From: Erythrobacter sp.
GTDB lineage: Bacteria; Pseudomonadota; Alphaproteobacteria; Sphingomonadales; Sphingomonadaceae
DNA: 19,752 bases
NCBI GenBank assembly: GCA_002695185.1
Contig: NZOF01000169.1
Coordinates: 4,076 to 23,827, forward strand
Direction of reading: 5' to 3'
The notes below the pieces were generated by a model. That model was given only the letters and a program-made list of their open reading frames with translations, made no database searches and was not told the origin of the DNA. The position numbers and the translations under genes were made by a program. Below are positions 3,191 to 19,743 of this stretch, one piece after another (within the stretch, counting starts at the first letter, position 1; each line of letters opens with the position of its first letter).

Positions 3191-3207
3191 TGGCGGAGAG
3201 GGTGGGA
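3191..3207. repeat. attR: 17-base copy of tRNA-Ser 3' end
   Basis: TGGCGGAGAGGGTGGGA is identical to 19654-19670. Identity stops on both sides (A versus T before it, AAC versus TTC after it), as expected for an att core. This copy is not part of a tRNA gene: the sequence beyond it does not continue the T arm. Confidence 0.9.
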
Positions 3208-4294: not shown

Positions 4295-4395
4295 AATGCT
4301 TTCAACAAAGTTGGAGTTCTGTCGAGGCCGGACAGTGCGTCTAGACGAGCGAAACGTCGGGCACGTCCTCGGGGCCAATATTAGGATACGCTCGC

Positions 4396-4875: not shown

Positions 4876-4999
4876 CACTATCCCCTTGAACTTAGCCAGA
4901 GAGATTAGAGCATAAAAAGAAGCAATATGCATCTAGTAGTATTCGTTTTGCACTCTTTTGGCTGTGGAAAATTTGCTGCTCGGCTGGCCGATGGTCTGT

Positions 5000-5236
5000 A
5001 TGGACCAGAGCGAAATCGAGAAGGCAGATGCCGAGCTATGCAAGCGTTTCGCGGCTCACGTGAGACGATTGCGGCGCGCCTCAGATAAATCGCAGGAACA
5101 GCTTGCCGAGGATGCGGGCGTTCACCGCACCTATATCTCGTCACTTGAACGCTCCGGTCAAAGAAACCCAACCATCAGCGTCGCCACCCGCATAGCAAGC
5201 GCACTGGGCGTCAGCTTGAGCGACTTGCTTGATTGA
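5000..5236 (+). CDS. Small XRE-family HTH regulator (controller-protein-like)
   Basis: The 78-residue protein is almost entirely a Cro/C1-type HTH (residues about 12-75): the segment SQEQLAEDAGVHRTYISSLE is a typical XRE helix-turn-helix, and NPTISVATRIASALGV is typical of the following helices. Size and sequence style resemble controller proteins of restriction-modification systems as well as small phage-type repressors. The start at 5000 (MDQSEIEK) is tentative; ATG 4991 and a TTG at 4958 are in frame, and none has a clear ribosome-binding site. Its last 26 bases overlap the end of the convergent reverse-transcriptase gene. It is divergent from the exported-protein gene and lies 4 kb from hsdM, so any control of the R-M operon would act in trans. 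Confidence 0.85.
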   Translation: MDQSEIEKADAELCKRFAAHVRRLRRASDKSQEQLAEDAGVHRTYISSLERSGQRNPTISVATRIASALGVSLSDLLD

Positions 5237-6368
5237 GAGAGATTACCTCTTTCAAGGTTGTTGCCGACGCCCAGCCGTTGTTTTCGCAAGCTATCTCAAG
5301 CGGCGCGCCACGGATGAGCGGAAAAGAGGATGCAAGCCATCCTTCAATGTCTTCCTCCGTACACCGGCCCTCAGCCCTATTTGCCAACTTGTCCCAGTTT
5401 TTCAATGACAGGCCGACTTCCACCTGATCACGCAAGCGAAGCGAATATCCAAGATGCTGGAACTCGTCCGTGACACTTTGCACCTTTTCCTCGCTCATCA
5501 AAAATGGCCCCGCTCGATGACCGGAGAGATACACAGCCAGAGAGTTATGTGCCCGCTGGGCCTGCGACATATTTGGTGCAAGCAGAATGATGTTATCACA
5601 ATAGACGAAAACCTGTATGGTCGCGTCCAATTGATCCGGCAGATCATCCAAAAACACCGCGAATATCGCGTTCGACGCGGGTGAACCCTCCATTAAACCG
5701 GACGGGACCATTTTTGACATGTCCACTGCATCAGGTGATACTCTATTCACCTGCTCGTGGCTTCGCTCCCTGCGCACGAACCTATGGGTCCGGTGGTCGA
5801 TGGCCCCACGGATCAGTTGTTCGGGCAGGTAGGGAATTTCGTAAATCGCTTCGGCGTTGACGCTTTCAAAAGCATGGCGGATGTCGGCGACCACCACCGC
5901 TTGTTCAGGCGAGACGATGGCTGCGATCAGATCGCGAACTTGTCTATGCCGCCCTCTACCCTTCCAGTCGCCAATATGCGGTCGCGGACGATGCTGGGCG
6001 CAGATAAGTTCTCGGGCCATGACATGCCACATCTTTACGGCAACCTCGAAGGAGCAAATCTTGCGATAGCCAGACGTGCTTCGTGCTTTCGGATGCCACT
6101 CGACCGGGCGTCGCCGTATCCGTCTGTAATCCGCAGGAGTATTCCGGCACTGCTGACGGGCTGACCACCGCTCAATTGCTATTGGCACGTTCCCCTGCTC
6201 ATACCAGATGTCATACAGCACGGCAGATTGGACAGCATGAGACATGAGATACCGTTCCGTCTCGCGCGCAAGCTGACCGGCAGATATGGGTTCTGTTCGC
6301 GTGAGGCTACGCCGACCAATCTGTTGAAGGAGCCGCCGGGCATAGCGTCGCTGATGCTGGAGCGTCAT
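5211..6368 (-). CDS. Divergent reverse transcriptase (RNA-directed DNA polymerase family)
   Basis: The 385-residue protein shows RT landmarks in order: a fingers-like segment (residues about 98-122, SGYRKI...), motif A with VVVADIRHAF (D162), motif B GLMEGSPASN (224-233), motif C VYCDN (Y256, D258, N259), and an LGYSLR segment (306-311) matching the palm/thumb boundary. Two hallmark positions differ from ordinary RTs: the second Asp of YxDD is Asn, and the Gln of GLPQGSP is Glu. There is no group II intron maturase or HNH domain, and no accessory variability protein or template/variable repeat nearby. It starts with an ATGA overlap on the AlpA-like gene, so the two are translationally coupled. 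It may belong to an uncharacterised or defence-associated RT class; I cannot name the class. Catalytic activity is uncertain. Confidence 0.85.
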   Translation of the reverse strand: MTLQHQRRYARRLLQQIGRRSLTRTEPISAGQLARETERYLMSHAVQSAVLYDIWYEQGNVPIAIERWSARQQCRNTPADYRRIRRRPVEWHPKARSTSGYRKICSFEVAVKMWHVMARELICAQHRPRPHIGDWKGRGRHRQVRDLIAAIVSPEQAVVVADIRHAFESVNAEAIYEIPYLPEQLIRGAIDHRTHRFVRRERSHEQVNRVSPDAVDMSKMVPSGLMEGSPASNAIFAVFLDDLPDQLDATIQVFVYCDNIILLAPNMSQAQRAHNSLAVYLSGHRAGPFLMSEEKVQSVTDEFQHLGYSLRLRDQVEVGLSLKNWDKLANRAEGRCTEEDIEGWLASSFPLIRGAPLEIACENNGWASATTLKEVISLNQASRSS

Positions 6369-6592
6369 GCTTTACGCCTTGCAACTGTTGCAACGGGACT
6401 GACGCCTTCCAAGCTCAATAGCCACGCGTCCAGCGTCTCGCGTCTGTAATAGGAAGCTCTGCCAACCTTGATGCTGGGCGGTCCCCTGTCTGATAGTTCC
6501 CAACGGTATAGGGTGCGCGGAGTGACGGCCAAAAGTCCGGCAACCTCGGTTCTGGTTAACAGGGTTCCAGCGAGTTGCGTTTGGTCCGTCAT
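6365..6592 (-). CDS. AlpA/excisionase-like helix-turn-helix protein
   Basis: The 75-residue protein has the small MerR-like winged HTH common in excisionases and AlpA regulators: LLTRTEVAGLLAVTPRTLYRW at about 11-31, then a basic wing (KVGRASYYRRE) and DAWL. Such proteins bind DNA either to direct excision by a tyrosine integrase or to regulate transcription. A GGAGG lies 11 bases before the ATG. Its stop overlaps the RT start (ATGA), making a two-gene unit. A TTGCAAC-T-GTTGCAA palindrome sits in its last codons (6379-6393). It could be the island's excision factor or the RT regulator; the context does not decide between these. Confidence 0.85.
   Translation of the reverse strand: MTDQTQLAGTLLTRTEVAGLLAVTPRTLYRWELSDRGPPSIKVGRASYYRRETLDAWLLSLEGVSPVATVARRKA
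6379..6393. repeat. TTGCAAC-T-GTTGCAA palindrome (copy 1 of 4)
   Basis: A perfect 15-base palindrome lies at the end of the AlpA-like gene, 11 bases before the RT start codon. Related palindromes occur at 8484, 17800 and 19634, and I found none outside the island. It is a candidate binding site for an island-encoded DNA-binding protein. Confidence 0.55.
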
Positions 6593-6650
6593 GTCCGTCT
6601 ATGCCTCCGTTTGTCTATGGAAGGCACCTTAACGGCCAGCTACGAAAATC

Positions 6651-6684
6651 TCCGTGACAACAATACAGCCGAAAATGTCACGGA
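6651..6684. promoter_or_regulatory. Perfect 9-base inverted repeat between 230-aa gene and AlpA-like gene
   Basis: TCCGTGACA (6651-6659) and TGTCACGGA (6676-6684) are perfect complements separated by 16 bases. The right arm covers the stop codon of the 230-aa gene. On the minus strand the hairpin is followed by GATTTTC, too poor in T for a confident intrinsic terminator. It may be a weak terminator, a processing site, or an operator for the AlpA-RT unit, whose promoter would have to lie in 6593-6650. Confidence 0.45.
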
Positions 6685-7370
6685 TTTCCCCGCTTCTTCA
6701 TCTCGCGCAAAATCCAAAGCGCCTTCTCAATATCAGCCGGGAAATCACATTCTAACGCCATGACTTCTTCGATCACGCGCTTAATTCGGCGGGTAACATT
6801 CCATCCCCGCAGTTCATAATAGGTCTCGTCCAATGTAGGAACACCGGTTCCGCCGACTTTGGACCTCAGAGCGTCATGCTGCTGCTCATAATCCCAAGCC
6901 CGCCGAACATCTTTGTGCCAATCGTCATCAGGGTCGCCGATTTTGTCCAAGCGAACACCAAGGCGGCGACAGGCTGCGATAACCGCCTGCCGAAACGGAG
7001 GAGCCCTATAGCGCGTTTGAAGAGGATTAACGTCTACCCGCGCCGAAACCTGCAAAGTTTCCTCACGTTTTCGCAGGGCCGCTGTGTGGAAATCCTCTGC
7101 TTTCAGATAAAATCGAACGATCTCATCCAAGATGTTCCGCATGGCGTGGCCCGACGAAAAATCATCAAAACCCCTTATCGCAGCTCTATGCGTTCGTCCC
7201 CGCAATTCAATGCAGGCTAACATTGCCCACGTTGGAGGGGAAAATGGATGTTCACCGATGGCAAGCGCTACAAGGCGGTAGTCTGGATTTCCATCGGCCT
7301 CGGACTGTAGGAACCTCTCTTCGGCGGTTGCAATCTCAAGCGCCCCGCTTTCTCTCCTTTTCCGCCCCAC
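6678..7370 (-). CDS. Hypothetical protein, 230 aa
   Basis: I do not recognise this protein. It is soluble-looking with no signal peptide or membrane span, and is rich in charged helices. Its C-terminal half contains a segment with WHKDVRRAWDYEQQHDALRS and ends in basic residues (REMKKRGNP). The start is GTG at 7370, supported by GGAG 8 bases upstream. It lies 54 bases downstream of the HNH-like gene on the same strand and is followed by a strong inverted repeat, so it is probably the last gene of the recombinase-led unit. Nothing in it indicates catalysis. Confidence 0.7.
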   Translation of the reverse strand: MGRKRRESGALEIATAEERFLQSEADGNPDYRLVALAIGEHPFSPPTWAMLACIELRGRTHRAAIRGFDDFSSGHAMRNILDEIVRFYLKAEDFHTAALRKREETLQVSARVDVNPLQTRYRAPPFRQAVIAACRRLGVRLDKIGDPDDDWHKDVRRAWDYEQQHDALRSKVGGTGVPTLDETYYELRGWNVTRRIKRVIEEVMALECDFPADIEKALWILREMKKRGNP

Positions 7371-7424
7371 TAGATGCGCTCCCGACTTGCCTTCAAGGAT
7401 CGACCTCGTCTCTTGCAGACAATA

Positions 7425-7832
7425 TTAGTCCTGCAAATGACTGGCCGACCACAACGGATAGGTATGCGCGAAAGGCTGCCATTGCGACAGGGGGCAAAGC
7501 GTCAGATTTCTGGCCCAACCAAAATGATTAAGCCTGTCAAGAAGGCGCAGCCAGTGCTCAGGTCGAACGAACCGCGCGTGGAGCAACTGATGGCATCTTC
7601 CGCAGCATCCAATGCCCGTCAGCGGGGAAGAATAGTCTTCCAGATGCAGGGTTATCGCGCCGGGCGTGGGCGGAGTGTCAAAGCCGCATATCGAACAACT
7701 TGTCGGGCGAGCAATAAAGCCGTCGCGAAAGGCCGCCCGTTGGATCGGTATTGTCACCTGCCGTTCTTCCGGCGACCAGCCATTATACCAAGAGCGGCAC
7801 CATCCACGATGCACGGTCAGGCGACAGACCAC
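7425..7832 (-). CDS. HNH-like zinc-binding protein
   Basis: The 135-residue protein carries a CSIC pair (C46, C49) and a CGRCH pair (C77, C80, H81), with the LHLEDYSSPL segment (H63) between them and LLHARF after. This matches the layout of small HNH proteins of phages and islands, in which the segment is normally LHHEDY; here the second His is Leu, so nuclease activity is uncertain. The proposed start is GTG at 7832, overlapping the upstream 64-aa gene by 16 bases. It has no clear ribosome-binding site, and a downstream GTG is possible. The C-terminal part contains LSQWQPFAHTYP, consistent with a conserved family that I cannot name. It may act as an endonuclease or a DNA-binding zinc protein. 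Confidence 0.7.
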   Translation of the reverse strand: MVCRLTVHRGWCRSWYNGWSPEERQVTIPIQRAAFRDGFIARPTSCSICGFDTPPTPGAITLHLEDYSSPLTGIGCCGRCHQLLHARFVRPEHWLRLLDRLNHFGWARNLTLCPLSQWQPFAHTYPLWSASHLQD

Positions 7833-8011
7833 GGTAATTTTCGGATCGCGGCGATCTGCCGCTTACCCTGTGTCAGACCCGCCGTGAGGCTGACAGAAAG
7901 TGCCTTGCTGATGTCCTCGGTAAGATCGGGATGCTGCCCCTCGACTGCCAGTCCATGAAGGTCTTCAAGCAGCGCGGTCAAATCAGCGAAATGTTCTTGC
8001 GGCGACGTCAT
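7817..8011 (-). CDS. Small hypothetical protein, 64 aa
   Basis: A 64-residue acidic, helix-prone protein without recognised motifs. Its ATG overlaps the recombinase stop codon (ATGA at 8011-8008), and its end overlaps the next gene by 16 bases, so it is very likely translated as part of this unit. It may be a partner or regulator of one of its neighbours; there is no direct evidence. Confidence 0.65.
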   Translation of the reverse strand: MTSPQEHFADLTALLEDLHGLAVEGQHPDLTEDISKALSVSLTAGLTQGKRQIAAIRKLPWSVA

Positions 8012-8571
8012 GCCACGACTTTCGCAAGCACCCGGTAGACCGAGGCGCGACCGATACCGAGGGCAGCAGCAATTTCGGACGCTCCCGCCCCTGCATCCCT
8101 CATAGCTCGCACCTGCTGAGCCTTAGCGCGTGCGGTGGGCGCTCTGCCCCGATATTTCCCAGCAGCCTTTGCTTTTGCGATACCGTCCCTCTGCCGGGAC
8201 AACATCACGGACCTCTCGAACTCTGCAACGGCGGCAAACATGGTCAGAAGCATCCGGCCACTGGGAGATTTCGTGTCCATTTCAGAGCCGCCGAAATCGA
8301 GTATGCGCAGGCCGACGCCTTTGGCCTCCAGCTTTCCAACGATGCTCAGAAGATCGGTGGTGGATCGGGCAAGCCGGTCAAGCCGCGTTACGACGAACAC
8401 ATCGCCCTCACGGACAAAATCCAATGCAGCATCCAGTTGCAGACGAACCGCGACCGACGACACCATTTCACGCATTATCTTTGTGCAACCCGTTGCAAGA
8501 AGTTGCCTCTCCTGAGCCTCCAGCCCCGCAATTTGCTCTGATGTGCTGCTGCGGCAATATCCTACCAGCAA
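8008..8571 (-). CDS. Serine recombinase (resolvase/invertase family)
   Basis: The 187-residue protein is a standard small serine recombinase. The N-terminal GYCRSSTSEQ carries the nucleophile S9 (with R7), TRLDRLARST holds catalytic arginines (R63, R66, R69), MFAAVAEFER (E117, R120) starts the long dimer helix, and a Hin-type HTH lies at about 160-182 (GIGRASVYRVL). It would catalyse resolution or inversion between short sites. The start is TTG at 8571 with GGGAGG 5 bases upstream. This start lies inside an 8-base inverted repeat, which may be its operator or a recombination subsite. It heads a minus-strand unit with the 64-aa, HNH-like and 230-aa genes. No second site for inversion was recognised. 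Confidence 0.92.
   Translation of the reverse strand: MLVGYCRSSTSEQIAGLEAQERQLLATGCTKIMREMVSSVAVRLQLDAALDFVREGDVFVVTRLDRLARSTTDLLSIVGKLEAKGVGLRILDFGGSEMDTKSPSGRMLLTMFAAVAEFERSVMLSRQRDGIAKAKAAGKYRGRAPTARAKAQQVRAMRDAGAGASEIAAALGIGRASVYRVLAKVVA
8484..8497. repeat. TGCAAC-CC-GTTGCA palindrome (copy 2 of 4)
   Basis: A 14-base palindrome inside the recombinase gene, followed by AG, as in copies 17800 and 19634. It belongs to the island-specific palindrome set. Confidence 0.5.
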
Positions 8572-8597
8572 TTCAACCTCCCGCTGTTATGCTGGTA
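8563..8597. promoter_or_regulatory. Inverted repeat around the recombinase start
   Basis: TACCAGCA (8563-8570) and TGCTGGTA (8590-8597) are perfect 8-base arms over a 35-base span. A further near copy, TGCTGGTG, follows at 8608-8615. The ribosome-binding site lies in the loop and the TTG start at the edge of one arm. The span resembles serine-resolvase subsite lengths (roughly 25-35 bases), so autoregulatory binding or a recombination site is plausible; an RNA hairpin covering the start is another reading. Confidence 0.5.
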
Positions 8598-8987: not shown

Positions 8988-9060
8988 ATCTGACAGTCCG
9001 CTAACCACCCCTATCTGCCGTTCACCGCTGCTGAGCGGCAGGCAATGCCCCTTTCTGGGC

Positions 9061-9173: not shown

Positions 9174-9260
9174 GAGGGCAAGCCGCTGCGAGAAATTTTT
9201 GAGCGGAGGGCGTGACTTAATCTCGCTCAATTGGCACATGCGAACCCGATTGGGGGAAAT

Positions 9261-11456
9261 GTGCTCACTGAAACTCACAAAGCCATCGCGGGCAAAATCT
9301 GGGAAATCGCCAACCGACTGCGCGGCCCATATCGGCCGCCGCAATACCGTCTCGTCATGCTCCCGATGGTCGTGCTGCGGCGCTTCGACTGCGTGCTGGA
9401 GCCAACCAAGGACGCCGTAGTCGCAGAACATGCGCGCCTGATTGCGGCCGGAACGCCCGAACGTGCGATCCCTAAGCTATTGAGCAAGATTGTCGATCCG
9501 GCCCGCCGTCGCCAGCCGCTCTACAACACCAGCCCCTACACATTCTCCAAGCTGCTGGACGACAGCGAGAACATCGCGCCAAACCTCGTTGCCTATATCA
9601 ACGGCTTTTCGGAAACCGCCCGCGCCATCTTCGATCGCTTCAAGTTCAGCGAGCAAATCGAAAAGCTCGACGCCAGCAACCGCCTCTTCAACATCGTCAA
9701 AGCGATGGCGGATGTCGATCTGCATCCCGATGCGGGCATCGACAATCTCCAGATGGGATACCTGTTCGAGTATCTTGTCATGAAGTTCAACGAGCAGGCG
9801 AACGAAGAGGCCGGGGATCACTTCACACCGCGCGAGGTCATCCGCCTGATGACCCACCTCGTCTACACGGGCGAGGAGGATGTCTACAAACCGGGCGTCT
9901 ACCGCGAGATTTACGATCCGGCCTGTGGCACCGGCGGTATGTTATCCGTGTCGGAAGAGACAATCCGGGCTGGCAACGTCAAGGCCAATCTGGGCCTCTA
10001 CGGACAGGAATATAACGACGAAAGCTGGGCGATCTGCTGTTCGGACATGCTCATCAAAGATGAGGATACCGACAATGTCGTCCTTGGTGACACGCTGGGC
10101 GACGGTAAAACGTTCGACGGTTTCCCAGAAAAGAAATTCCATTACATGCTCGCCAATCCGCCATTTGGCGTGGAGTGGAAGGACCAACAGAAGATCGTCG
10201 CCAAGGAAGCGGAGGAGCTGGGCTTCTCCGGCCGGTTCGGTGCGGGTCTGCCCGCGATCAACGATGGCTCACTGCTCTTCCTTCAACATATGATGTCGAA
10301 GATGCACCCCAGCTCGGCCAAGGGCGGCGAAGGGTCCAAGATCGCAATCATCTTCAACGGCTCGCCCTTATTCAGCGGCGATGCGGGGTCCGGCCCGTCT
10401 AATATCCGGCGCTGGATAATCGAGAATGACCAGCTCGACGCGATCGTCGCGCTGCCCGATCAGCTTTACTACAACACCGGCATCTTCACCTACATCTGGC
10501 TTGTCACGAACCGGAAGCCGCCAGAGCGACGCGGCAAGGTTCAGCTCATCGACGGCACCCGCTTCTTCCGCAAGATGAAGAAGAGCCTAAACAACAAGCG
10601 CAATGAGCTGTCCGATGAGCCGGGCGGCCATATCGACCAGCTGACCAGGATTTACGGCAACTATCAGGACGGAGAGACGGCGGGCGTCTGCACAGATGAG
10701 AAGGCTGGAACGTGGGAGAAGCGCGTTGTCAGCCGCATCTTTGAGAACCGGGAATTTGGCTTCCTGAAAGTCACTGTCGAACGGCCGTTGCGCCTCAATT
10801 TCGAAGCGACGGCGGAGCGGATCGCACGGCTGGATGAGCAATCCGCCTTCGTCAATCTGGCCGTGTCGAAGAAGCGCAAGGACGCCAAGGCCGTCGAAGC
10901 CGAAGAGGCCGAAGGCCGCGCCTCGCAGGAGGCCATACGGGCGCTGCTCAGCACACTCGCAGGCGACGGGCTGTATAAGGACCGGGACCGCTTCGAGGCT
11001 GCGTTAGAGGCTACCGCAAAGCGCGCAAAACTCAAGTTGCCCACGCCGATCAAGAAGGCGATCTTCGCCGCACTGGGCGAGCGCGATCCGACGGCAGCGA
11101 TTTGCCACGACAGCAAGGACCGGCCGGAGCCGGACAGTGAGTTGCGCGATACCGAGAATATCCCGCTGCCGCCCGGCACCGCGCTGCCCTTACCGATGAA
11201 CTTCGGGCCGGACATGCCCAATGACGATTTGGTGAAGGCGATGCGGCCGGCGATCGACGCCTATATCGATGCAGAAGTGCTGCCGCACGTCCCCGATGCT
11301 TGGGTCGATTACAGCAAGACCAAGATCGGCTATGAAATCCCGATCAACCGGCATTTCTACGTCTACAAACCGCCGCGCCCGCTGGGCGAGATTGAGGCGG
11401 AAATTACGGCGCTGGAAGGCGAGATCGCTGGCTTGCTCAAGGGTTTGGTGGCGTGA
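9261..11456 (+). CDS. hsdM: Type I restriction-modification DNA methyltransferase subunit
   Basis: The 731-residue protein begins with the HsdM N-terminal helical domain (KIWEIANRLRGPYRPPQY...LPMVVLRR) and continues with the N6-adenine methyltransferase domain. That domain has SAM motif I DPACGTGG at about residues 219-226 and catalytic motif IV NPPF at about 299-302. HsdM with HsdS methylates adenine in a bipartite target. The start is placed at GTG 9261, which yields the family-like N-terminus MLTETHKAI and has GGGGGA just upstream; the frame also allows TTG at 9231. The C-terminal part (about 530-730) is longer than in the shortest HsdM proteins. It is the first gene of a five-gene operon, with a GTGA overlap to hsdS. 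Confidence 0.95.
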   Translation: MLTETHKAIAGKIWEIANRLRGPYRPPQYRLVMLPMVVLRRFDCVLEPTKDAVVAEHARLIAAGTPERAIPKLLSKIVDPARRRQPLYNTSPYTFSKLLDDSENIAPNLVAYINGFSETARAIFDRFKFSEQIEKLDASNRLFNIVKAMADVDLHPDAGIDNLQMGYLFEYLVMKFNEQANEEAGDHFTPREVIRLMTHLVYTGEEDVYKPGVYREIYDPACGTGGMLSVSEETIRAGNVKANLGLYGQEYNDESWAICCSDMLIKDEDTDNVVLGDTLGDGKTFDGFPEKKFHYMLANPPFGVEWKDQQKIVAKEAEELGFSGRFGAGLPAINDGSLLFLQHMMSKMHPSSAKGGEGSKIAIIFNGSPLFSGDAGSGPSNIRRWIIENDQLDAIVALPDQLYYNTGIFTYIWLVTNRKPPERRGKVQLIDGTRFFRKMKKSLNNKRNELSDEPGGHIDQLTRIYGNYQDGETAGVCTDEKAGTWEKRVVSRIFENREFGFLKVTVERPLRLNFEATAERIARLDEQSAFVNLAVSKKRKDAKAVEAEEAEGRASQEAIRALLSTLAGDGLYKDRDRFEAALEATAKRAKLKLPTPIKKAIFAALGERDPTAAICHDSKDRPEPDSELRDTENIPLPPGTALPLPMNFGPDMPNDDLVKAMRPAIDAYIDAEVLPHVPDAWVDYSKTKIGYEIPINRHFYVYKPPRPLGEIEAEITALEGEIAGLLKGLVA

Positions 11457-12733
11457 GTTTCGACATTTCTACTCCACCCGATTGGACACGATCCTCCGTA
11501 TCGAAATACTGCCAAGTGCAACTTGGTAAAATGCTCCAGTCCGATCCCAGCGGAGCTGAGGACGAGTTGCTGCCCTATTTACGCGCAATCAGCATTTCAA
11601 AAAGTGGCGGCGTTGATCTGTCTCATCAATTCACAATGTGGATCAAACCCCACGAAAAAGAAAAATTTCTCCTCAAGCGCAACGACGTTCTTGTTAGCGA
11701 AGGAGGCGATGCTGGACGCACAGCCCATTTCGATACGGAGGGGGAATATTATTTTCAGAATGCTATCAATCGGGTGCGATCTTTGGACCGGAATAGGGTC
11801 GATAGTCGCTACCTGTTTTACTGGTTCACTTTCTTGAAGCTGGCCGGATATGTAGACCTGATTTGCAACGTGGCGACAATTGCTCACTTCACCGCCGAGA
11901 AAGTGAAGGCTGCTCCATTCGCTCTGCCTCCGCGCGAAACCCAGAAGCGCATCGCCGCCTTTCTGGATAGAAAAACGGCGCAGATCGACGGACTGATCGC
12001 AAAGAAGCGGGCGTTGCTGGAGCACCTCGTCGAAAAGCGGCAGACGATAATCACTCAAGCCGTCACCAAGGGCCTCAATCCCTCCGCTCCCATAAAAGAC
12101 AGCGGCACCGATTGGCTCGGCCATATCCCCGCGCATTGGGAGGTGAAGCGCCTATCATTTGTGTCTGAGGTAATCGACTGCAAGCACCGGACGCCAGAAT
12201 ACATCGATGACGGCATTCCACTTGTCAGCACTACCGAGATTTCTCCGTATGTAATCGACTATAATACCAAGCGGCAGGTCAGTGATGATGAACTCGCGAT
12301 CATGTCGGAGGGCGGACGGCAGCCTCGGGTTGGCGACGTAATCTACAGTCGCAATGCGTCTGTAGGCTCTGCCGCCCTTGTGCGAGATGATCGAACGATA
12401 TGCTTGGGACAGGACCTGTGCCTTGTCAGGCCGTCTGTCATCCACCCAGAGTTTCTTGAGCATTTTTTGAACTCAACAGCCTGCTGGGTGCAATTAGGGA
12501 GCTATCTCGTCGGTGCGACCTTCAAGCGGGTCAATGTTGATGTAATCAAAAAATACCTGCTTCCTTTGCCGCCGCCGGAGGAGCAGATGGCTATCGCTGA
12601 GCAGGTCAGCGTCGCTATCGTGAAAGCCGAAGCGATCGAACGCAAAGTTTCAGATAGCATTTCTGTGCTGAGCGAATACCGATCCGCCGTTATCACTTCC
12701 GCAGTTACGGGGCAGATAGAGGGGCTGAAATGA
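11453..12733 (+). CDS. hsdS: Type I restriction-modification specificity subunit
   Basis: The 426-residue protein has the duplicated HsdS plan. Target-recognition domain 1 is at about 10-155. The central conserved helix follows at about 158-205, with LPPRETQKRIAAFLD. TRD2 is at about 225-370, opening with WLGHIPAHWEVKRL, and the distal conserved helix is at about 372-420, with LPPPEEQMAIAEQV. It binds DNA and sets the two half-sites of the target; the sequence recognised cannot be predicted by eye. The GTG start at 11453 overlaps the hsdM stop (GTGA) and the end overlaps the next gene as ATGA, so translation is coupled on both sides. It appears intact, with no internal inverted copy suggesting shuffling. 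Confidence 0.95.
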   Translation: MSFDISTPPDWTRSSVSKYCQVQLGKMLQSDPSGAEDELLPYLRAISISKSGGVDLSHQFTMWIKPHEKEKFLLKRNDVLVSEGGDAGRTAHFDTEGEYYFQNAINRVRSLDRNRVDSRYLFYWFTFLKLAGYVDLICNVATIAHFTAEKVKAAPFALPPRETQKRIAAFLDRKTAQIDGLIAKKRALLEHLVEKRQTIITQAVTKGLNPSAPIKDSGTDWLGHIPAHWEVKRLSFVSEVIDCKHRTPEYIDDGIPLVSTTEISPYVIDYNTKRQVSDDELAIMSEGGRQPRVGDVIYSRNASVGSAALVRDDRTICLGQDLCLVRPSVIHPEFLEHFLNSTACWVQLGSYLVGATFKRVNVDVIKKYLLPLPPPEEQMAIAEQVSVAIVKAEAIERKVSDSISVLSEYRSAVITSAVTGQIEGLK

Positions 12734-13362
12734 GCCTCACAGCGCAGACCTATTTCCAACATCTCAAAGCCTATGTGAACGACGATTACGTCATTCACGA
12801 TGGTGCCGGTGGCAAGGTCATACTGACCGAAAAATATTTCCGCACGCAGGATGTGAAACCGCAGGTTCGCAAAATCGAACTTCTTCTGCCGGGAGCTGGC
12901 ATGGCCTTCAAGCTCGACCATGACGACTTCGACAATCGCGAGCAAGACAAAGACAAGGATAAGCGAAACCGCAAGCCCGCGCTCTTTCACTTTCTCGACG
13001 ATAACGGCAAAGCGTGGTCGAAGCGCTGCGATTTCGTAATTTTCTACGTCAATCGTCGATCTTTCCATGCCGACTGCATTGAGTTCAAATCAAAAAGCCT
13101 CGCGGCGGACAAGATCGTTCCTCAATTGAGAGCTGGTGCTTGCTGGGTAAGCGCGCTCAAGCGAACGGTCGAACAATATACGGGCGACAAACAGCGCATA
13201 AGGCTCCGCAAATTCGTATTTGCCGAGAATACCACGCCGGAGACATATTTGGATGCAAACCGGCAGTTGCTCGCCGATCCTTCCGTGCGATACTATCATT
13301 TTGATGAAGTTCACGGCCGATCGCTAACGGACCTGCAAAACAATTCATCTCAGGACGTTTGA
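12730..13362 (+). CDS. R-M operon protein with PD-(D/E)xK-like nuclease signature
   Basis: This 210-residue protein is not a known Hsd subunit. Its central part has a hydrophobic strand after an Asp (CDFVIFYV, D101), then a second strand ending in IEFKSK (E118, K120). This D-x16-E-x-K spacing matches PD-(D/E)xK nucleases, with a following helix (ADKIVPQL) in the expected place. A very charged loop (about 62-82, with repeated DKDK) precedes it. The ATG overlaps the hsdS stop (ATGA) and the stop is 3 bases before hsdR, so it belongs to the operon. It may be an accessory nuclease or a modulator of restriction; the fold assignment is from motif spacing only. Confidence 0.75.
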   Translation: MSLTAQTYFQHLKAYVNDDYVIHDGAGGKVILTEKYFRTQDVKPQVRKIELLLPGAGMAFKLDHDDFDNREQDKDKDKRNRKPALFHFLDDNGKAWSKRCDFVIFYVNRRSFHADCIEFKSKSLAADKIVPQLRAGACWVSALKRTVEQYTGDKQRIRLRKFVFAENTTPETYLDANRQLLADPSVRYYHFDEVHGRSLTDLQNNSSQDV

Positions 13363-13365
13363 GCA

Positions 13366-16300
13366 ATGGCGGGCCACACCGAAACCGATTTTGAGCACGC
13401 CATAGAATATGGCCTCATCACTAACGACCGCTACCGCAAGGGCGACCCCAAGGCGTTCGATCCGGCGACAGCATTGTTTCCCGATGAGGTGATCGCCTTT
13501 ATCCGCGATAGCCAGCCCACGCGCTGGGACCAGCTTGAGGCGATGCTCAGGGATCGCACGGCGGCGACGGTCATCGACAGCCTCGTTAAAGAGTTGGCGA
13601 GCAAAGGCAGTCTGGGCGTGCTGCGTCACGGCTTCAAATGCTATGGCAAAACGCTCCGCCTTGCCTATTTCCGGCCAAATTCCGGGCTGAACCCGGAGAG
13701 TGCGGCGCGCTATGCCGCCAACCGGCTAATGATCACCCGGCAAGTGCGATTTAAGTCCGAACCGCTCAAATGCGATTGCATCCTCGACGTGGTGCTTTCC
13801 GTCAACGGGTTGCCGGTGGTAACGGCAGAACTTAAAAATCCGCAAACCGGCCAGCGCGCCAGAGATGCCTGCACGCAGTATAAAAAGGACCGCGATGGCC
13901 GCGATCCGATCTTCCGCTTCAAGGAGCGGACGCTGGTGCATTTTGCAGTCGATCCAGACGAGGTGTGGATGACGACACATTTGAAGGGCGAGGAAACCCA
14001 TTTCCTGCCTTTCAACCGGGGGCACAATCACGGTGCGGGCAACCCGCCGGTCGAGGGCAACTGGAAAACCCGTTATCTATGGGGCGAGGCGCTTTGCGCT
14101 GACAGCCTGCTCGATATTCTCCAGCGGTTCATACATCTCGACGTGAGCGAGCGGACGGTTGAAACGCCCACCGGCTTTCGCACGGTTCGCAAGGAAGTGA
14201 TGATCTTCCCGCGCTATCATCAGCTCGACGCGGTGCGAAGCCTCGTCGGCCATGCGGCTGCGCATGGATCGGGCCACAATTATCTGATCCAGCATTCGGC
14301 CGGTTCCGGCAAATCGAACAGCATCGCGTGGCTCGCCCACCGGCTGGCGACGCTGCACGACGCCAAGGACGAGAAGGTGTTTCATTCGGTGATCGTCATC
14401 ACCGATCGCCGCGTCCTCGATCAGCAATTACAGAACACCATCTACCAATTCGAGCATAAGACGGGTGTGGTCGAGAAGATCGACGAGAACACGCAGCAAC
14501 TCGCTAAGGCACTGTCGAACGGCACGCCGATTATAATCTCGACGATCCAGAAATTCCCCTTCATCTCACAGGCGATCAAGACGCTGGAGGCCAAGGGCGA
14601 AGGCGTGGCGATCGACACGCGCGACCGGCGCTTCGCGGTAATCGTGGACGAGGCGCATAGCAGCCAGTCGGGCGATACTGTTGCCGCTCTCAAGGGCATC
14701 CTCAACAAGGACGGCATCGCCGATGCCATCGCCTCGCAGGCGGGTGATGAGGAGGATGAGGATCTATCCGAAGAGGCCAAGGCGGCCATCCGTCAGCAAA
14801 TGATGCAACGGGCACGCCAACCGAACCTCAGCTTCTTTGCCTTCACCGCGACGCCTAAGTTCAAGACCAAAGCGGTGTTCGATGAGCCGGGACCATCCGG
14901 CGCGGCACCCTTCCACGAATATACGATGCGGCAGGCCATCGAAGAGGGCTTCATCCTCGATGTCCTCCAGAACTACACCACCTACAAACGCTTTTTCGGG
15001 CTAGTGAAGCAGGTCGAGGACGACCGCGACGTGCCGAAGAAGAAGGCGGGTAAGGCGCTGGGGCAGTTTCTGGAGCTGCATCCGACCAACATCGGTCAGG
15101 TGGTCGCCATCATCATCGAGCATTTCCGGCTGCGGGTCATGCACGAGTTGGGCGGCCGGGCAAAGGCGATGGTTGTCACCGGGTCGCGCCTCTCCGCCGT
15201 CCGCTACAAGCGGGCGTTCGATCGCTACATTCGCGACAATGGCTATCAGGGCATCCGGGCGCTGGTCGCCTTCTCCGGCACGGTCGAAGACCCAGATGAC
15301 CCCGGCTCCGCCTTTACCGAAGTCGGCATGAATGATGGCCTTGCCGAAAAGGAGCTGCCTGAGCGGTTCGCAGGCGATGACTATCGCGTGCTGATCGTGG
15401 CGGAAAAATATCAGACCGGCTTCGATCAACCGCTGCTCCAGACAATGTATGTCGTGAAGAAGCTGGCAGGCGTTCAGGCAGTCCAGACGCTATCCCGCCT
15501 CAACCGCACCGCTCCAGGCAAGACGCGCACTTTCGTCCTCGATTTCAACAATGAAGAGGCAGACATCTATAAGGCGTTCAAACCCTATTATGAGACAACT
15601 CCAGTGGGCGAAAATGCCGATCCTCATCGGTTGAACGAACTGCACCACAAATTGCTGGAACCGGCCGTGTTTGCTCCATCGGACGTCGATGAATTTGCGG
15701 AAGTCTGGTTCAAGCGTCGACGCGACCATACAGGGCAAGATCATCGGGCCATGAACGCCGTGCTGGATCGATCGGTTGAACGCTTCAAAGGGCTGGAAGA
15801 AGCGGTGCAGGAGGAATTTCGCGGCCAGATGACCGCGTTCAACAACCTCTATGCCTTTCTCTCGCAGATCATGCCCTATTTCGATGAGGGGCTGGAGCGG
15901 CTGTATGCCTTCTCGCGAAACCTTTCGCCCAAACTTCCACGACCAGGCGATGGATCGAAATTCACGCTCGACGATGATGTGGCGCTCAAATTCTTCCGCC
16001 TCAGTCAGGTGAACGACGGCACTATTGATCTGACGCAGGGCGAAGCGCAGCCGCTCAAAGGGCCGACCGATGTTGGCACCGCCCGCGAGAAGGACATAGA
16101 GATTGCTTTGTCGTCGCTGGTCGAGAAGCTGAACGAACGGTTTGGGACGGATTTCACCGAAGCCGACCAGCTCTTTTTCGACCAGGTGCGAGCGTCGGCG
16201 GAGCGCGACGAGAAGGTTGTCGAAGCGGCACAGGCTAACAGTTTCTCTAACTTCTCGTCGTTCTTCGGACGTATCCTTGATGACCTCTTCATCGAACGCA

Positions 16301-16434
16301 TGGAAAATAATGACGAAATTTTCAGCCGGGTTATGAGCGACAAACAGTTCCGAGGCGCGGCACAGGAGCATATCGCTCGCGAGGTCTATGATCGTATTCG
16401 AAAGGCGAGAGAAGCGGAGGTAGACGGCGAATGA
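13366..16434 (+). CDS. hsdR: Type I restriction endonuclease subunit R
   Basis: The 1022-residue protein has the HsdR order. An N-terminal PD-(D/E)xK nuclease carries VVTAELKNPQ (E155, K157). The superfamily 2 translocase follows: Walker A SAGSGKS at about 311-317, VDEAH at 427-431, FTATP at 492-496, a VTGSR segment near 603, AEKYQTGFDQP at 678-688 and SRLNRT at 709-714. It uses ATP to translocate DNA and cleaves at a distance from unmodified sites, in complex with HsdM and HsdS. The C-terminal 250 residues are helical and may contact HsdM. The start is 3 bases after the previous stop; the stop overlaps the next gene as ATGA. All key residues appear intact. Confidence 0.96.
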   Translation: MAGHTETDFEHAIEYGLITNDRYRKGDPKAFDPATALFPDEVIAFIRDSQPTRWDQLEAMLRDRTAATVIDSLVKELASKGSLGVLRHGFKCYGKTLRLAYFRPNSGLNPESAARYAANRLMITRQVRFKSEPLKCDCILDVVLSVNGLPVVTAELKNPQTGQRARDACTQYKKDRDGRDPIFRFKERTLVHFAVDPDEVWMTTHLKGEETHFLPFNRGHNHGAGNPPVEGNWKTRYLWGEALCADSLLDILQRFIHLDVSERTVETPTGFRTVRKEVMIFPRYHQLDAVRSLVGHAAAHGSGHNYLIQHSAGSGKSNSIAWLAHRLATLHDAKDEKVFHSVIVITDRRVLDQQLQNTIYQFEHKTGVVEKIDENTQQLAKALSNGTPIIISTIQKFPFISQAIKTLEAKGEGVAIDTRDRRFAVIVDEAHSSQSGDTVAALKGILNKDGIADAIASQAGDEEDEDLSEEAKAAIRQQMMQRARQPNLSFFAFTATPKFKTKAVFDEPGPSGAAPFHEYTMRQAIEEGFILDVLQNYTTYKRFFGLVKQVEDDRDVPKKKAGKALGQFLELHPTNIGQVVAIIIEHFRLRVMHELGGRAKAMVVTGSRLSAVRYKRAFDRYIRDNGYQGIRALVAFSGTVEDPDDPGSAFTEVGMNDGLAEKELPERFAGDDYRVLIVAEKYQTGFDQPLLQTMYVVKKLAGVQAVQTLSRLNRTAPGKTRTFVLDFNNEEADIYKAFKPYYETTPVGENADPHRLNELHHKLLEPAVFAPSDVDEFAEVWFKRRRDHTGQDHRAMNAVLDRSVERFKGLEEAVQEEFRGQMTAFNNLYAFLSQIMPYFDEGLERLYAFSRNLSPKLPRPGDGSKFTLDDDVALKFFRLSQVNDGTIDLTQGEAQPLKGPTDVGTAREKDIEIALSSLVEKLNERFGTDFTEADQLFFDQVRASAERDEKVVEAAQANSFSNFSSFFGRILDDLFIERMENNDEIFSRVMSDKQFRGAAQEHIAREVYDRIRKAREAEVDGE

Positions 16435-17789
16435 AGCTCGTGCTTGGGGGCATCAACGGCACCTACATGCGCGACTTGATCGAGCGTGCAAGCCGCTTCG
16501 TTGATGGCAAGGTAGAGACGGAGGCTGTGTGGGCGGCCGTTGCCTACGCAACTGATACGGGCTTACTCTTCGACTGGTGTTGGGAGAATGGTGTGCCCCT
16601 ACGCTTTTGGGGGCGACTGGACGACGAAGTCGCCGTCAATGTTGGCGTGTTAGACCGCTTCCTCACCCGCCGATCACCAAATTTCGTTTGCAAGCTCGTC
16701 CAGCATCACCACGCCAAGGTCATCTGGTGGCGTGGTTTCGGGGTTTATATTGGCTCGGCCAATCTTACCCAAAAGGCTTGGTATAAGAACATTGAGGCAG
16801 GGTGCTTTTTTCCTGAAAACGAAATCGACGGAGAGCTTGACCAAGAGCTATCCGATTTGTTCGCGCAGCTTGAGGCGCGGGCGACGCCTTTGACCACTGA
16901 GCTTCGCGACTGGATGGCCGCGCGAGCCAAGAAGCTCGTCACACAGCCGGACCCGAAACCATTCTGGCAGCATCCAAGCATTAAAACGTGGCCGGGGTTG
17001 ATCCAGACCACGCCCAAGAGCGCCCGCGAACGGCAAAGGCGCGCATTTCTGGATGAGTGGCATTCAACGCTCGAAACGTTGCGAGACATAGGTTCGCTTG
17101 TCAGCCAATCCAAACACCAACCGCCGTGGGTAAAGCCCGACGCAGCGGTGGGAGCGCAGGCCGATCAATTCCTTCATGCACATTATTACATGCGAACCTT
17201 CGATCAGCGAAGGGCCGACTATGAACGCCATTATGAGCAAAACCGCAGCAACCCGGCCAAGGCGCTGTCGGAAGCGATGACATGGTGGAGGGGTTTGGAG
17301 GAGCTTGAACACGAGGCAGTTGCTATTAACGAAACAGCTCCTCGGTTGCGGGATGCTCTCGCTCCAGAAAATCTCTCTCGGATGACGCTGCCAGAGTTTC
17401 AGGCTGTAGCCGAGCACGTCCACGCAATGCGAGAATATGCGAGGCGCGTAAGCAACAAGACGGTTGGCTTGCCTTCAAATGGCACGCGATACACCATACC
17501 TGAGAAACTGGACGCACTGACGAGGCACATTTGGTCGCAAAGATCGGCTTCGGGCGCATCCGTGACCGACGTGATTGGTTACATCCTCTACGGTGGCGCA
17601 GTTGATTTACTTCCCGATCGGCTATGGGACGCGATTTCCGACCCAGCATTAAAGCTCGACTGCTTGGGAATATCAGCCTTTGGCGAGTTAGTAGGATGGG
17701 CGATGCCCGACCGTTTCCCTCCGCGCAACGGTCGGACATCCAAGGCACTGCGATCCCTCGGATATGACGTGCACGTGCATGTCGGATAG
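16431..17789 (+). CDS. Phospholipase-D-like domain protein of the R-M operon
   Basis: The 452-residue protein has one PLD-type motif in its N-terminal domain: HHHAKV (H94, K96) followed by GVYIGSANLTQKAW (G108 to N111). This is the HxK...GSxxN pattern of PLD-superfamily nucleases. The Asp expected four residues after the Lys is Arg (R101), so the motif is incomplete. Single-motif members usually act as dimers. Residues about 140-452 form a long helical region with no motif I can name. The ATG overlaps the hsdR stop (ATGA), so it is part of the type I operon, as its last gene. Possible roles are nuclease, DNA end-binding or restriction partner. The DISARM defence system also has a PLD protein, but its other genes are absent here. 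Confidence 0.85.
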   Translation: MKLVLGGINGTYMRDLIERASRFVDGKVETEAVWAAVAYATDTGLLFDWCWENGVPLRFWGRLDDEVAVNVGVLDRFLTRRSPNFVCKLVQHHHAKVIWWRGFGVYIGSANLTQKAWYKNIEAGCFFPENEIDGELDQELSDLFAQLEARATPLTTELRDWMAARAKKLVTQPDPKPFWQHPSIKTWPGLIQTTPKSARERQRRAFLDEWHSTLETLRDIGSLVSQSKHQPPWVKPDAAVGAQADQFLHAHYYMRTFDQRRADYERHYEQNRSNPAKALSEAMTWWRGLEELEHEAVAINETAPRLRDALAPENLSRMTLPEFQAVAEHVHAMREYARRVSNKTVGLPSNGTRYTIPEKLDALTRHIWSQRSASGASVTDVIGYILYGGAVDLLPDRLWDAISDPALKLDCLGISAFGELVGWAMPDRFPPRNGRTSKALRSLGYDVHVHVG

Positions 17790-17799
17790 GGCGTCTTGC

Positions 17800-17813
17800 T
17801 GCAACTCGTTGCA
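17800..17813. repeat. TGCAAC-TC-GTTGCA palindrome (copy 3 of 4)
   Basis: This 14-base palindrome starts 11 bases after the R-M operon stop, in the 149-base gap before the convergent integrase gene. The gap otherwise shows no clear terminator hairpin, so this dyad could contribute to one, although no T-run follows. Confidence 0.5.
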
Positions 17814-17938
17814 AGCATTTGGGTGGCGGTGGGTTTAAACCTAGCTTGTAAGTATTTGATCTTGGATAGGTATACATGCGGCGTTTTACAGAAAAAGCCG
17901 CGAAAAATCTTCCAATTCCAACGGTGGAAGGCTTGTGA

Positions 17939-19600
17939 TCAGTCGATGACGTAGCGCGGCAGCCGCTTGATTTCGCGAAAGGTAACCTCAGGCGAAATAT
18001 CACCATACGCTTCGCCTTCGGTCCGCGGCGCGTGACCTTGTATGTAATCTCGAATTTCGGGGTCCATGCGGCAAATTCGAGCCTGAGATTTGAAGCGATG
18101 TCGCCAGCCATGGCTTGGCTGCACGAGACGGTCATCTACCCCAACGTCATCTCTAACCCAGCGCGCTATAAATTCCCCGACATTCTTCCACAGGGGGTTC
18201 TGCTCAGAGCCGCCCCGCCTCATCGTGGGATCGAAAAACAGAGGACCCGATTTTCCCCGAACGATTTTATGGAAGCCTTGATCGAGAAGATGCGGATGTA
18301 GCGCCACCACGCGCGCTTCATGATTTTTCGTGCTCCCGGCCTCCGGGGTAATCCTAATTGTCCAAATTCCCGCTTTCTGAGACACGTCCTCAGCCCTGAG
18401 CTGCGTAATCTCATTCACCCGCGCACCTGTGTAGGCACAAAGCCACGGAACCCAGCGCCGTGCCAATTTGCGTTCAGGAGACAATCTCGTTTTGTCCTCA
18501 GTCAACGTGGCACGTAGAATTTTCAATGCTTCATCATCGCTCAGGCTGGGCGACCGCAACCGAGCGGTCTTCTTCTTGCCGAGCACGCCGACGCCTTTGG
18601 CAACATTTTCGGTCAGCACGCCGCTATCGACCCCGCGTTGAAGCGCGACGCGGATCGCAGGCAAATAAGTTTCCCGCACAGTTCTCGGATTAAGCGGCGC
18701 TCCGTCTTTGCCCCCGCGCGCCAGTAGCTCGACCTTCCACCGATCCACATCCTGCTTGGACACTCTTCTTGCGTCATCGTGCTGGAGAAACTCGGAAAAG
18801 CGACGAACTTGGCGACCGAAGGCCTTTATCGTTGCTGGGGCTGGCTTTCGTTCAGCAACATATTCATCGAAGAGCGTGAGCAATGAGACTGGCTCAACCG
18901 CCTTACTCTGCTCACGCATTTGGGCGTCGGCAATGAAATGCTCGGCGCTAAACATCTCGTCCGAAGTCTGCTGCGGCCTTCCTTGCAACCCTTGAAGTTG
19001 GCGTTCAGTCGCCTCGATCTGCGCACGCGTGACCAGATCAATGAGCTTCCACCAAGTATCGCTGCCCTCTTCGACCGCCCACCTGTTTCGTTCACACAAG
19101 GCCTCGGTCATCCAGACGACGTCAAGCGTGGGGCCATCAGAACCAAGGCGGCGAGAGGCCATGGTCTCTCTCAAGAAGCATTTTAAATCATCCAGCCGTC
19201 GTAAGGCCGCGTAAACAGCATCAGGGTCCGCTCGATTGACGCTCTGAACGCGTTCCATCCTTTCCGCGAAGGCCTCTCGGACGCCTGCCTCCAAGACGCG
19301 AACGGAGGGCCGTGAGGGAGCGTGAGCTATCTCTGATGGTGCTACTTCGCCTCGATAGGGGGCAACTGCCTGCTCAAATTTATCGAGTTCCCGCTGACGC
19401 TTGTGCCGGGCCTCCGCGATGCTGGAGGTTCGGAGAGAGACTTGCACTTCCGCTCGTCCGCCAAACAGCCCTCGCACATCGTCGGGAACGCCCCTCCGAA
19501 AATAGAGGCGATCTCCGCGCCGATATATGTAGCGTTCGCCCCGAACCGCCTTCAAACCCGACCCCCTCTTTGTAGCAGATTTTGTAGCAGTTAGCCGCAC
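17939..19600 (-). CDS. Tyrosine site-specific integrase (DUF6538-type N-terminus)
   Basis: The 553-residue protein carries the complete tyrosine recombinase set: R394 (YTGARVNEI), K425 (STKNHEAR), HxxR at H497/R500 (HGWRHR), H523 (QGHAPR) and Y532 (EAYGD). Its N-terminal 70 residues (YIYRRGDRLYFRRGVPDDVR) match the arm-binding-type domain of DUF6538 integrases, and a core-binding domain spans about 238-330. It integrates and excises the island at the tRNA-Ser 3' end, 54 bases from its start. The start is GTG at 19600. The first codons contain two TGTAGCA motifs, which may be integrase sites, so the enzyme could repress its own gene. A GCAAC-CA-GTTGC dyad lies in its promoter region. Confidence 0.95.
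   Translation of the reverse strand: MRLTATKSATKRGSGLKAVRGERYIYRRGDRLYFRRGVPDDVRGLFGGRAEVQVSLRTSSIAEARHKRQRELDKFEQAVAPYRGEVAPSEIAHAPSRPSVRVLEAGVREAFAERMERVQSVNRADPDAVYAALRRLDDLKCFLRETMASRRLGSDGPTLDVVWMTEALCERNRWAVEEGSDTWWKLIDLVTRAQIEATERQLQGLQGRPQQTSDEMFSAEHFIADAQMREQSKAVEPVSLLTLFDEYVAERKPAPATIKAFGRQVRRFSEFLQHDDARRVSKQDVDRWKVELLARGGKDGAPLNPRTVRETYLPAIRVALQRGVDSGVLTENVAKGVGVLGKKKTARLRSPSLSDDEALKILRATLTEDKTRLSPERKLARRWVPWLCAYTGARVNEITQLRAEDVSQKAGIWTIRITPEAGSTKNHEARVVALHPHLLDQGFHKIVRGKSGPLFFDPTMRRGGSEQNPLWKNVGEFIARWVRDDVGVDDRLVQPSHGWRHRFKSQARICRMDPEIRDYIQGHAPRTEGEAYGDISPEVTFREIKRLPRYVID
19571..19589. repeat. Paired TGTAGCA motifs, right candidate integrase arm site
   Basis: TGTAGCA occurs at 19571-19577 and 19583-19589, with the same 12-base period as at the left end. 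The pair ends 64 bases before the attL core and lies within the first codons of the integrase gene. Both pairs have the same orientation on the plus strand. Confidence 0.6.
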
Positions 19601-19633
19601 AGAAACACCGCTTTCAAGGGTTTTCTAACAGTC

Positions 19634-19645
19634 GCAACCAGTTGC
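19634..19645. repeat. GCAAC-CA-GTTGC palindrome (copy 4 of 4)
   Basis: This 12-base dyad is followed by AAGGG and sits between the integrase start and the tRNA 3' end, 8 bases from the attL core. The position suits control of integrase expression or of recombination. Confidence 0.5.
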
Positions 19646-19653
19646 AAGGGAAT

Positions 19654-19670
19654 TGGCGGAGAGGGTGGGA
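19654..19670. repeat. attL: 17-base att core within tRNA-Ser 3' end
   Basis: Identical to 3191-3207. It comprises the encoded CCA, the discriminator base, the 3' acceptor strand and the edge of the T arm of tRNA-Ser, read on the plus strand as TGGCGGAGAGGGTGGGA. Confidence 0.9.
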
Positions 19671-19743
19671 TTCGAACCCACGTTACGGTTTCCCGTAAAC
19701 CGCATTTCGAGTGCGGCGCATTCGACCACTCTGCCACCTCTCC
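19654..19743 (-). tRNA. tRNA-Ser (anticodon CGA)
   Basis: On the minus strand the 90-base gene folds as a class II tRNA: acceptor GGAGAGG pairs with CCTCTCC, followed by discriminator G and encoded CCA. The anticodon stem CCGCA/TGCGG encloses loop CTCGAAA (anticodon at 19709-19707), a long variable arm (TACGG-GAAA-CCGTA) follows, and the T loop is TTCGAAT. The long variable arm and anticodon CGA identify serine, reading UCG codons. The gene is intact because the island supplied an identical 3' end. Confidence 0.96.

Follow-up and report, generated by a model that had tools for sequence, protein, structure and literature searches.

The accepted signature of reverse transcriptases (RTs) includes a third catalytic aspartate. 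In the RT described here, encoded in a 19,752-nt stretch of Erythrobacter sp. DNA (hereafter the window; GCA_002695185.1, contig NZOF01000169.1, 4,076-23,827 of the forward strand), this residue is an asparagine. Mutated RT aspartates are reported to inactivate or severely disrupt retroviral RTs (PMC554778, PMC2148107). Asn at the same place as in the window RT, i.e., the second Asp of YXDD, is found in eukaryotic LTR elements, an unrelated setting. YVDN occurs naturally in the Cer7-Cer12 Pao/BEL retrotransposons of C. elegans, the activity of which was untested at the time of that report (PMC554778), and the engineered Ty1 D211N RT keeps its polymerase activity in vitro, with a 223-fold lower kpol and a preference for Mn2+; transposition of this mutant is lost in vivo (PMC2148107). 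No bacterial YxDN RT family appeared in the titles and abstract openings of the literature searched.

Several bacterial systems offer points of comparison. Unlike group II intron RTs and the domesticated G2L4 RT, the window RT has no Rfam intron match, has Asn in motif C and falls on a separate branch. The RTs of diversity-generating retroelements (DGRs) carry GxxxSQ as motif B (PMC4244168), a motif that the window RT does not have. A weak profile likeness links its family to the UG/DRT defence RTs (e.g., UG4, UG17 (DRT10), or UG26), and tyrosine recombinases are described nearby in DRT10 too (PMC12632851); the differences are the Asn in motif C, scores far below that of a retron control, and the absence from the window of a recognised SLATT partner in Pfam scans. 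GInt genomic islands, likened here by description only, are integrated as well and are defined by a set of genes for recombination (PMC5385486).

Asparagine in motif C across an RT lineage

The window RT (Table 1) matches Pfam RVT_1 over residues 98-309 (E 4.5e-10, 40 bits vs. a cut-off of 29.6) and has a confident predicted RT fold, the C-terminal part of which aligns to group II RT structures; profile and fold both place it in the RVT_1 family. A protein search returned 76 proteins, among them a 273-aa record (P0003) identical to the window RT over its length, and searching again with a 16-row profile retrieved 73, of which P0084 alone was new. In the resulting alignment of the window RT with 76 others (77 rows, identity down to about 30%), D162, D258, and N259 are identical in every row, Asn being the sole residue seen at 259, so that the usual trio of catalytic aspartates (one in motif A, two in motif C) is replaced throughout by two aspartates and an asparagine. 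P222, G224, G228, and S232 are also invariant in 77/77 rows. At residue 227 of motif B, 70 rows have Glu and seven have Gln; the latter form one side of a 100/100 branch, and the switch therefore needs a single change on that tree. Motif C of the core family reads YCDN, with YSDN (P0076, P0084) and NCDN (P0059) as exceptions. Invariance of N259, D258, and D162 despite divergence to about 30% identity argues for a working site rather than decay, and a decaying copy is ruled out by the Asn in 77/77 rows. Nine of the entries carry an organism name (Sphingobium, Tsuneonella, Croceicoccus, Novosphingobium, Pontixanthobacter, Qipengyuania, and three times Erythrobacter), and all nine belong to what we take to be Sphingomonadales genera.

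Genome searches extended the sample. The 38-row RT profile matched 1/398 Pseudomonadota genomes (E up to 1e-10), five of the 397 genomes of the family of G088 matched at 1e-20 (core loci L012 and L013, divergent loci L014, L015, and L016), and 3/297 relatives of G441 matched at 1e-12, two of them already in the previous set and one new (L033). With a 15-row profile, 8/385 genomes of the class matched (1e-10), and two of these were used (L030, L031); L021, L022, L023, and L025, matches to the same profile, look group II-type by eye, L022 serving as a reference row in the trees (the stretch around it, L034, has no integrase by phmmer), and neither L026 nor L024, whose genome has three more copies, was used. 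Two more RTs, L047 and L050, were found through a DNA palindrome, without use of RT similarity. The D-N pair recurs in the divergent RTs of L014 (YGDN), L015 (YSDN), L017 (HCDN), L050 (YADN), and L047 (WSDN; the frame identified is truncated, and this RT is absent from the trees); D-D is present in L016 (YADD), L030 (YGDD), L031 (YVDD), and L033 (HGDD).

These relatives were placed in two trees, both built without UG or Abi sequences. The second has 30 rows, 25 integrase-linked RTs (family and relatives) and five references (two group II, one group II-like, one RT-Cas1, and one DGR); retron and phage BT-TP2 rows, included in the first tree, were dropped from it for their long branches. The 25 integrase-linked RTs form one side of a 99/95 branch separating them from the five references. 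Both trees need three changes between D-N and D-D. A single origin of D-N among the integrase-linked RTs was considered and rejected, a one-clade test giving p-AU 0.005 against it, with the qualification that branches are long and the group was named after a tree had been seen.

Sequence comparison thus supports a separate lineage, with YxDN fixed, that falls in none of the described classes tested, the models being those of PADLOC 2023 and the tree lacking UG and Abi. The best PADLOC (2023) score of the window RT is 36.9 bits, to a CRISPR-type RT model, and its best UG-class score is 24.3 bits, to UG17; the retron Ec86 RT, used as a control, scores 401.7 bits in its own class. Across 38 members of the family the best UG E-value is 3.4e-12 (UG4), and 8/8 integrase-linked relatives stay at or below 54.7 bits to any UG model (highest for L031, to UG17); no strong match to a UG/DRT or Abi class model was obtained with this library. 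The group II maturase model TIGR04416 (NCBIfam) gives 22.3 bits against a cut-off of 300, and RT_I-B, the only retron-type model listed, 11.8 bits. At gathering thresholds, Rfam returned only tRNAs in the window and in L001, with neither intron nor msr-msd RNA among the matches, a search that undescribed RNAs, including those of retrons, would escape; for a possible ncRNA template, there was no match in the cassette regions of L012 and L013 and one chance-level snoRNA match in L016. Motif B is GLMEGSP, not the GxxxSQ of DGRs, and within 4300-9300 the repeat search found no TR/VR pair, only families of 27 nt or less. No cas domain was seen by Pfam in nine window proteins (3365-8571), the cargo, or the integrase. 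By tblastn at 1e-5, RT homologues were absent from the plasmid and phage collections, as they were from viral contigs searched with the single sequence or the 38-row alignment; raising E up to 10 brought in only weak matches, to four phage and 23 plasmid records, the latter chiefly group II intron RTs with one cas1-type and a few others.

The preliminary description of this DNA had read YCDN in motif C, GLMEGSP in motif B, and D162 in motif A, and each of these letters is right. It had also proposed a separate RT branch, which the low PADLOC scores and the 99/95 branch against group II, CRISPR, and DGR references bear out, and had seen no intron, retron-type RNA, or DGR repeats, in agreement with the searches above. 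As to whether YxDN is fixed in its clade, N259 is invariant; close homologues with YxDD, which would have spoken for a decaying copy, did not appear, the YADD of L016 belonging to a distant cassette relative (25-27% identity). Its further suggestions, a possible defence role or an altered use of metal or template, go beyond what these data show.

Table 1. Features of the window (positions are those of the window)
Feature	Position	Strand	Details
Left island end repeat, 17 bp	3191..3207	.	Identical to 19654-19670
XRE/C-protein-like regulator	4958..5236	+	HTH_3 3.6e-16; PADLOC Control_protein 3.5e-19
Reverse transcriptase (RT)	5211..6368	-	385 aa, ATG start; motifs A, B, and C located
RT motif C, YCDN	5592-5603		
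RT motif B, GLMEGSP	5679-5699		
RT motif A Asp, D162	5883-5885		
HTH_17 excisionase-type DNA-binding protein	6365..6592	-	75 aa; Pfam HTH_17 2.2e-8; PHROG excisionase 1.4e-8
Perfect palindrome TTGCAACTGTTGCAA, 1-nt centre	6379..6393	.	At HTH/RT junction
ORF1	6678..7370	-	230 aa, without known domain; conserved upstream of HTH-RT
HNH-like protein (weak)	7425..7832	-	PHROG endonuclease 6.3e-6; no Pfam match over cut-off
Serine recombinase (resolvase family)	8008..8571	-	Pfam Resolvase 1.6e-35
Palindrome TTGCAACNNGTTGCAA, 1 mismatch	8483..8498	.	Inside serine recombinase gene
Type I restriction-modification cargo	9231..16434	+	Pfam HsdM_N, N6_Mtase, Methylase_S, HSDR_N
hsdM	9231-11456	+	
hsdS	11453-12733	+	
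hsdR	13366-16434	+	
PLD-domain protein	16431..17789	+	PLDc_2 1.9e-6
Palindrome TTGCAACNNGTTGCAA, 1 mismatch	17799..17814	.	Between 3' ends of PLD gene and integrase
Tyrosine-type integrase beside tRNA	17939..19600	-	NCBIfam XerA-like 3.4e-9 (below cut-off); DUF6538, Phage_int_SAM_1
Palindrome TTGCAACNNGTTGCAA, 1 mismatch	19632..19647	.	Between integrase start and tRNA
tRNA-Ser(CGA), attachment site	19654..19743	-	ARAGORN; last 17 bases repeated at other island end

The ORF1-HTH-RT cassette and its tRNA-anchored islands

In the window, the stop of the HTH gene overlaps the RT start (ATGA), and the HTH protein additionally matches the excisionase model TIGR01764 of NCBIfam at 3.5e-5, below its cut-off. 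The order ORF1-HTH-RT is found in 4/4 core loci, i.e., the window, L001 (Novosphingobium pokkalii), L012, and L013, as well as in the distant YADD relative L016. In L012 and L013 the order is integrase-ORF1-HTH-RT, with overlapping integrase/ORF1 frames and overlapping HTH/RT frames; L016 has the same four genes, and its integrase/ORF1 overlap is one base. HTH and RT frames overlap in the four core loci and in the distant L033. The gap between ORF1 and HTH is 85 nt in the window and 63-87 nt across loci (86 in L001 with the HTH start at 7700), and no common sequence was noticed in it by eye. On the other side, the XRE/C-protein-like regulator is convergent with the RT gene and overlaps its 3' end. 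The preliminary description, accurate as to the letters of the RT, had left this context unreported, namely ORF1, the HTH gene coupled to the RT, and the 17-bp repeats at the ends of a tRNA-Ser island.

The proteins of the cassette diverge to different extents. Core RT pairs are 44-52% identical and the L016 RT is 25-27% identical to them; the integrase (45-50%) and HTH protein (48-52%) of L016 are as close as between core loci, which indicates that the RT changed faster there. The L001 HTH protein has 47% identity over 60 residues. ORF1 identity is low throughout (27-45%). A search with ORF1 gave seven proteins, one of them (P0077) identical to that of the window; the contigs of P0078 and P0080 are equal in length to those of the RT entries P0001 and P0004, which suggests that the two genes are linked there as well. 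The predicted ORF1 model is helical and too poor to use (pLDDT only 66.7), and no fold matched it at E below 0.001. Searches of L014, L015, L017, L030, L031, and L033 gave no ORF1, which is therefore not a partner of the whole lineage. L016 has the same cassette with YADD, so the system as such does not require the Asn.

An integrase is a frequent neighbor of these RTs. In 9/9 genomes tested (G441, G642, G605, G424, G636, G383, G1071, G478, and G1179, a set without the window and L001), less than 4 kb separates the RT from the nearest PF00589 match, and the chance of an integrase within 5 kb, calculated from integrase counts per genome, averages 2.3%. The distance is 11.6 kb in the window, and phmmer found no integrase in the 17 kb of L001; that of L030, missed by phmmer, was recovered with the Pfam profile. 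The genes read in one direction from the tRNA through the integrase and HTH genes to the RT in L033, and through the integrase and small genes to the RT in L031 and L015, and the RT is opposite in orientation to the integrase in L014, L017, L047, and L050. Three other RTs were present in the eleven genomes searched (G605:C1:110245, G441:C1:1134032, and G383:C35:448132), the first at about 0.4 kb from an integrase and the remaining two at about 38 and 9 kb. That first one (G605:C1:110245-110820; open frame of 348 aa) gives the L014 genome a second RT, and the integrase beside it is a different one. Proximity alone is thus not unique to the lineage, and gene order and overlapping frames weigh more.

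The window holds a tRNA-anchored integrative island of 16.5 kb, with an integrase beside the tRNA and a repeat of the tRNA end at the far end, that carries the RT cassette, the serine recombinase, the type I restriction-modification system, and the PLD protein. The same 17-bp repeat bounds islands in L015 (12.8 kb) and L050 (12.2 kb), and a 46-bp piece of tRNA-Lys bounds those of L012 (11.1 kb) and L013 (10.7 kb); the RT is internal to each of these five islands. An intact tRNA stands beside the integrase in L014, L017, L031, and L033, and the DNA before the integrase of L016 resembles, by eye, the 3' portion of a different tRNA. In L001, about 300 nt separate ORF1 from a 40-nt 5' part of a tRNA-Gly that lies upstream of it and shares 95% identity with the L045 tRNA-Gly. 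Methylase or restriction genes occur near the RT in the window, L001, L012, and L013. Serine recombinase matches by phmmer were obtained in 8/12 other RT loci (L012, L013, L014, L016, L017, L033, L047, and L050) and not in L001, L015, L030, or L031.

Further observations concern the surroundings of these islands. Two island ORFs of the window (3365-4932; 337 and 178 aa) have no Pfam match over cut-off, the first having a weak PHROG match of unknown function. Outside the island, window positions 261-2953 show 84% DNA identity to a 1-Mb Ochrobactrum plasmid; a similar record annotates the genes there as SMP-30, SDR, and LysR types. The genome of L012 (G441) contains a second, 10-kb island in tRNA-Ser(GCT) (L039, 6397-16658), with a window-like integrase flanked by the palindrome TTGCAACNNGTTGCAA and, by eye, DNA methylase-like genes; it has no RT. 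In G533, a tRNA-Gly(CCC) and a 40-nt copy of its 5' half bound a stretch of 13 kb (L045, 250-13323); the tRNA-Gly that is cut in L001 is related.

Besides the copies of the window, TTGCAACNNGTTGCAA is found in L012 (10379), L013 (10438), L016 (9932, 11208, and 12477), L015 (11891), and L031 (11810). With up to two mismatches, 23 copies were counted in 12 loci vs. 1.6 expected from shuffles, a count made after the palindrome had been noticed there; L030 and L034 have no copy at this threshold. It often stands just after the RT or integrase gene and also at recombinase starts. In nine RT genomes, there are eight exact copies, in five of the nine genomes, seven of them in the DNA retrieved on either side of the RT and the eighth (G1071) on the contig of its RT, some 14 kb away; one-mismatch copies number 15, five in RT stretches and ten elsewhere. 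Exact copies occur in 7/149 genomes of the family of G025. Six of these were not already known to have this RT: RTs of this type are present in two (L047, L050) and a serine recombinase island in a third (L045), and in the other three control loci (L046, L048, and L049) neither an RT nor an integrase or recombinase was matched in its vicinity. The 2-nt centre of the palindrome had at first led to its reading as a serine-recombinase crossover site, which we do not maintain, since its flanks show no conservation, coding starts of recombinases overlap with it, the L039 copy comes without an RT, and 3/6 control loci are bare.

Possible roles of the RT

Taken together, these data describe a real, conserved RT lineage tied to tRNA-anchored islands and undescribed within the literature searched. 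Were the RT catalytically dead and a mere RNA- or DNA-binding subunit, its third aspartate would be free to change, and YxDN for YxDD, the Gln to Glu change in motif B, and the damage that mutation of these aspartates is reported to do to retroviral RTs (PMC554778, PMC2148107) could be read in that way. Drift would then be expected, yet the other two aspartates and P222, G224, G228, and S232 are invariant in 77/77 rows and Asn alone stands at 259, and we consider this explanation very unlikely. Given the activity of Ty1 D211N and the invariant D162 and D258, the RT is more probably a working, altered polymerase than a dead enzyme, and, by analogy with this mutant, altered metal use by the window RT is plausible.

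As to what such a polymerase would do, our first choice, held tentatively and at a little under an even chance, is island-borne defence by a maintained, integrase-linked RT with ORF1 and the HTH protein. The RT would still polymerise DNA with two remaining aspartates and an Asn in third place, probably slowly or with a preference for Mn2+, as in the Ty1 mutant; the HTH protein would control it together with the integration genes of the island; and the RT and its ORF1 partner would give a DNA product shielding island and host from phages or competing elements, working alongside the restriction-modification cargo. This idea draws on the restriction-type cargo and on analogy with other RTs, and the evidence points first to tRNA-anchored integrative islands. 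Restriction and methylase cargo and the faster RT change in L016 fit island defence, the divergence of that RT being what a fast-changing conflict gene would show; the cargo argument is weak because many islands carry restriction systems. Also counting against this reading are the failure to find an ncRNA template, the score of at most 36.9 bits to any PADLOC model, the loci in which no ORF1 was found, the 11.6 kb between RT and integrase in the window with no integrase found in L001, and the YADD of L016.

The main rival, rather unlikely in our judgment, is that the RT belongs to a mobility module of the island with the integrase, ORF1, and the HTH protein, where it might, for example, make cDNA or extend DNA ends during excision, circularisation, or re-integration at the tRNA. 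An integrase operon with an excisionase-type HTH protein fits mobility, as do the one-directional arrangements starting at the tRNA in L033, L031, and L015, the integrase match within 4 kb in 9/9 genomes, and the frame overlaps, HTH/RT in L012 and L013 and integrase/ORF1 in these two and L016, the latter suggesting mobility at least as much as defence. However, no integrase adjoins ORF1 in the window or L001, RT and integrase face opposite ways in L014, L017, L047, and L050, and the L039 island has a window-like integrase without an RT. In DRT10, moreover, a tyrosine recombinase accompanies two of the three RT operons tested, and its deletion left defence unaffected (PMC12632851); a nearby tyrosine recombinase can thus be dispensable for RT defence. 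A stronger form of the idea, a new integrative element with an integrase-ORF1-excisionase-RT core, in which reverse transcription takes part in excision from or integration into tRNA genes and YxDN is fixed in the lineage, we consider unlikely.

It is very unlikely that the RT is ordinary cargo without a special link to the integrase, their adjacency reflecting island ends as insertion hot spots. RT orientation and neighbors do vary outside the core family, the RT is rare (5/397 and 3/297 genomes, the second set sharing two matches with the first), and one of the three other RTs in the same genomes (G605:C1:110245) is also beside an integrase; but L012 or L013 and L016 share gene order and the integrase/ORF1 overlap with RTs only 25% identical.

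A natural lineage with Asn in third place, beside Asp-keeping relatives in similar islands, provides a ready-made test of the role of that residue. The recurrent link between this RT and tRNA-targeting integrases raises in turn the question of whether reverse transcription plays a role in the life of these islands, or whether the link marks a defence family missing from the PADLOC library used.
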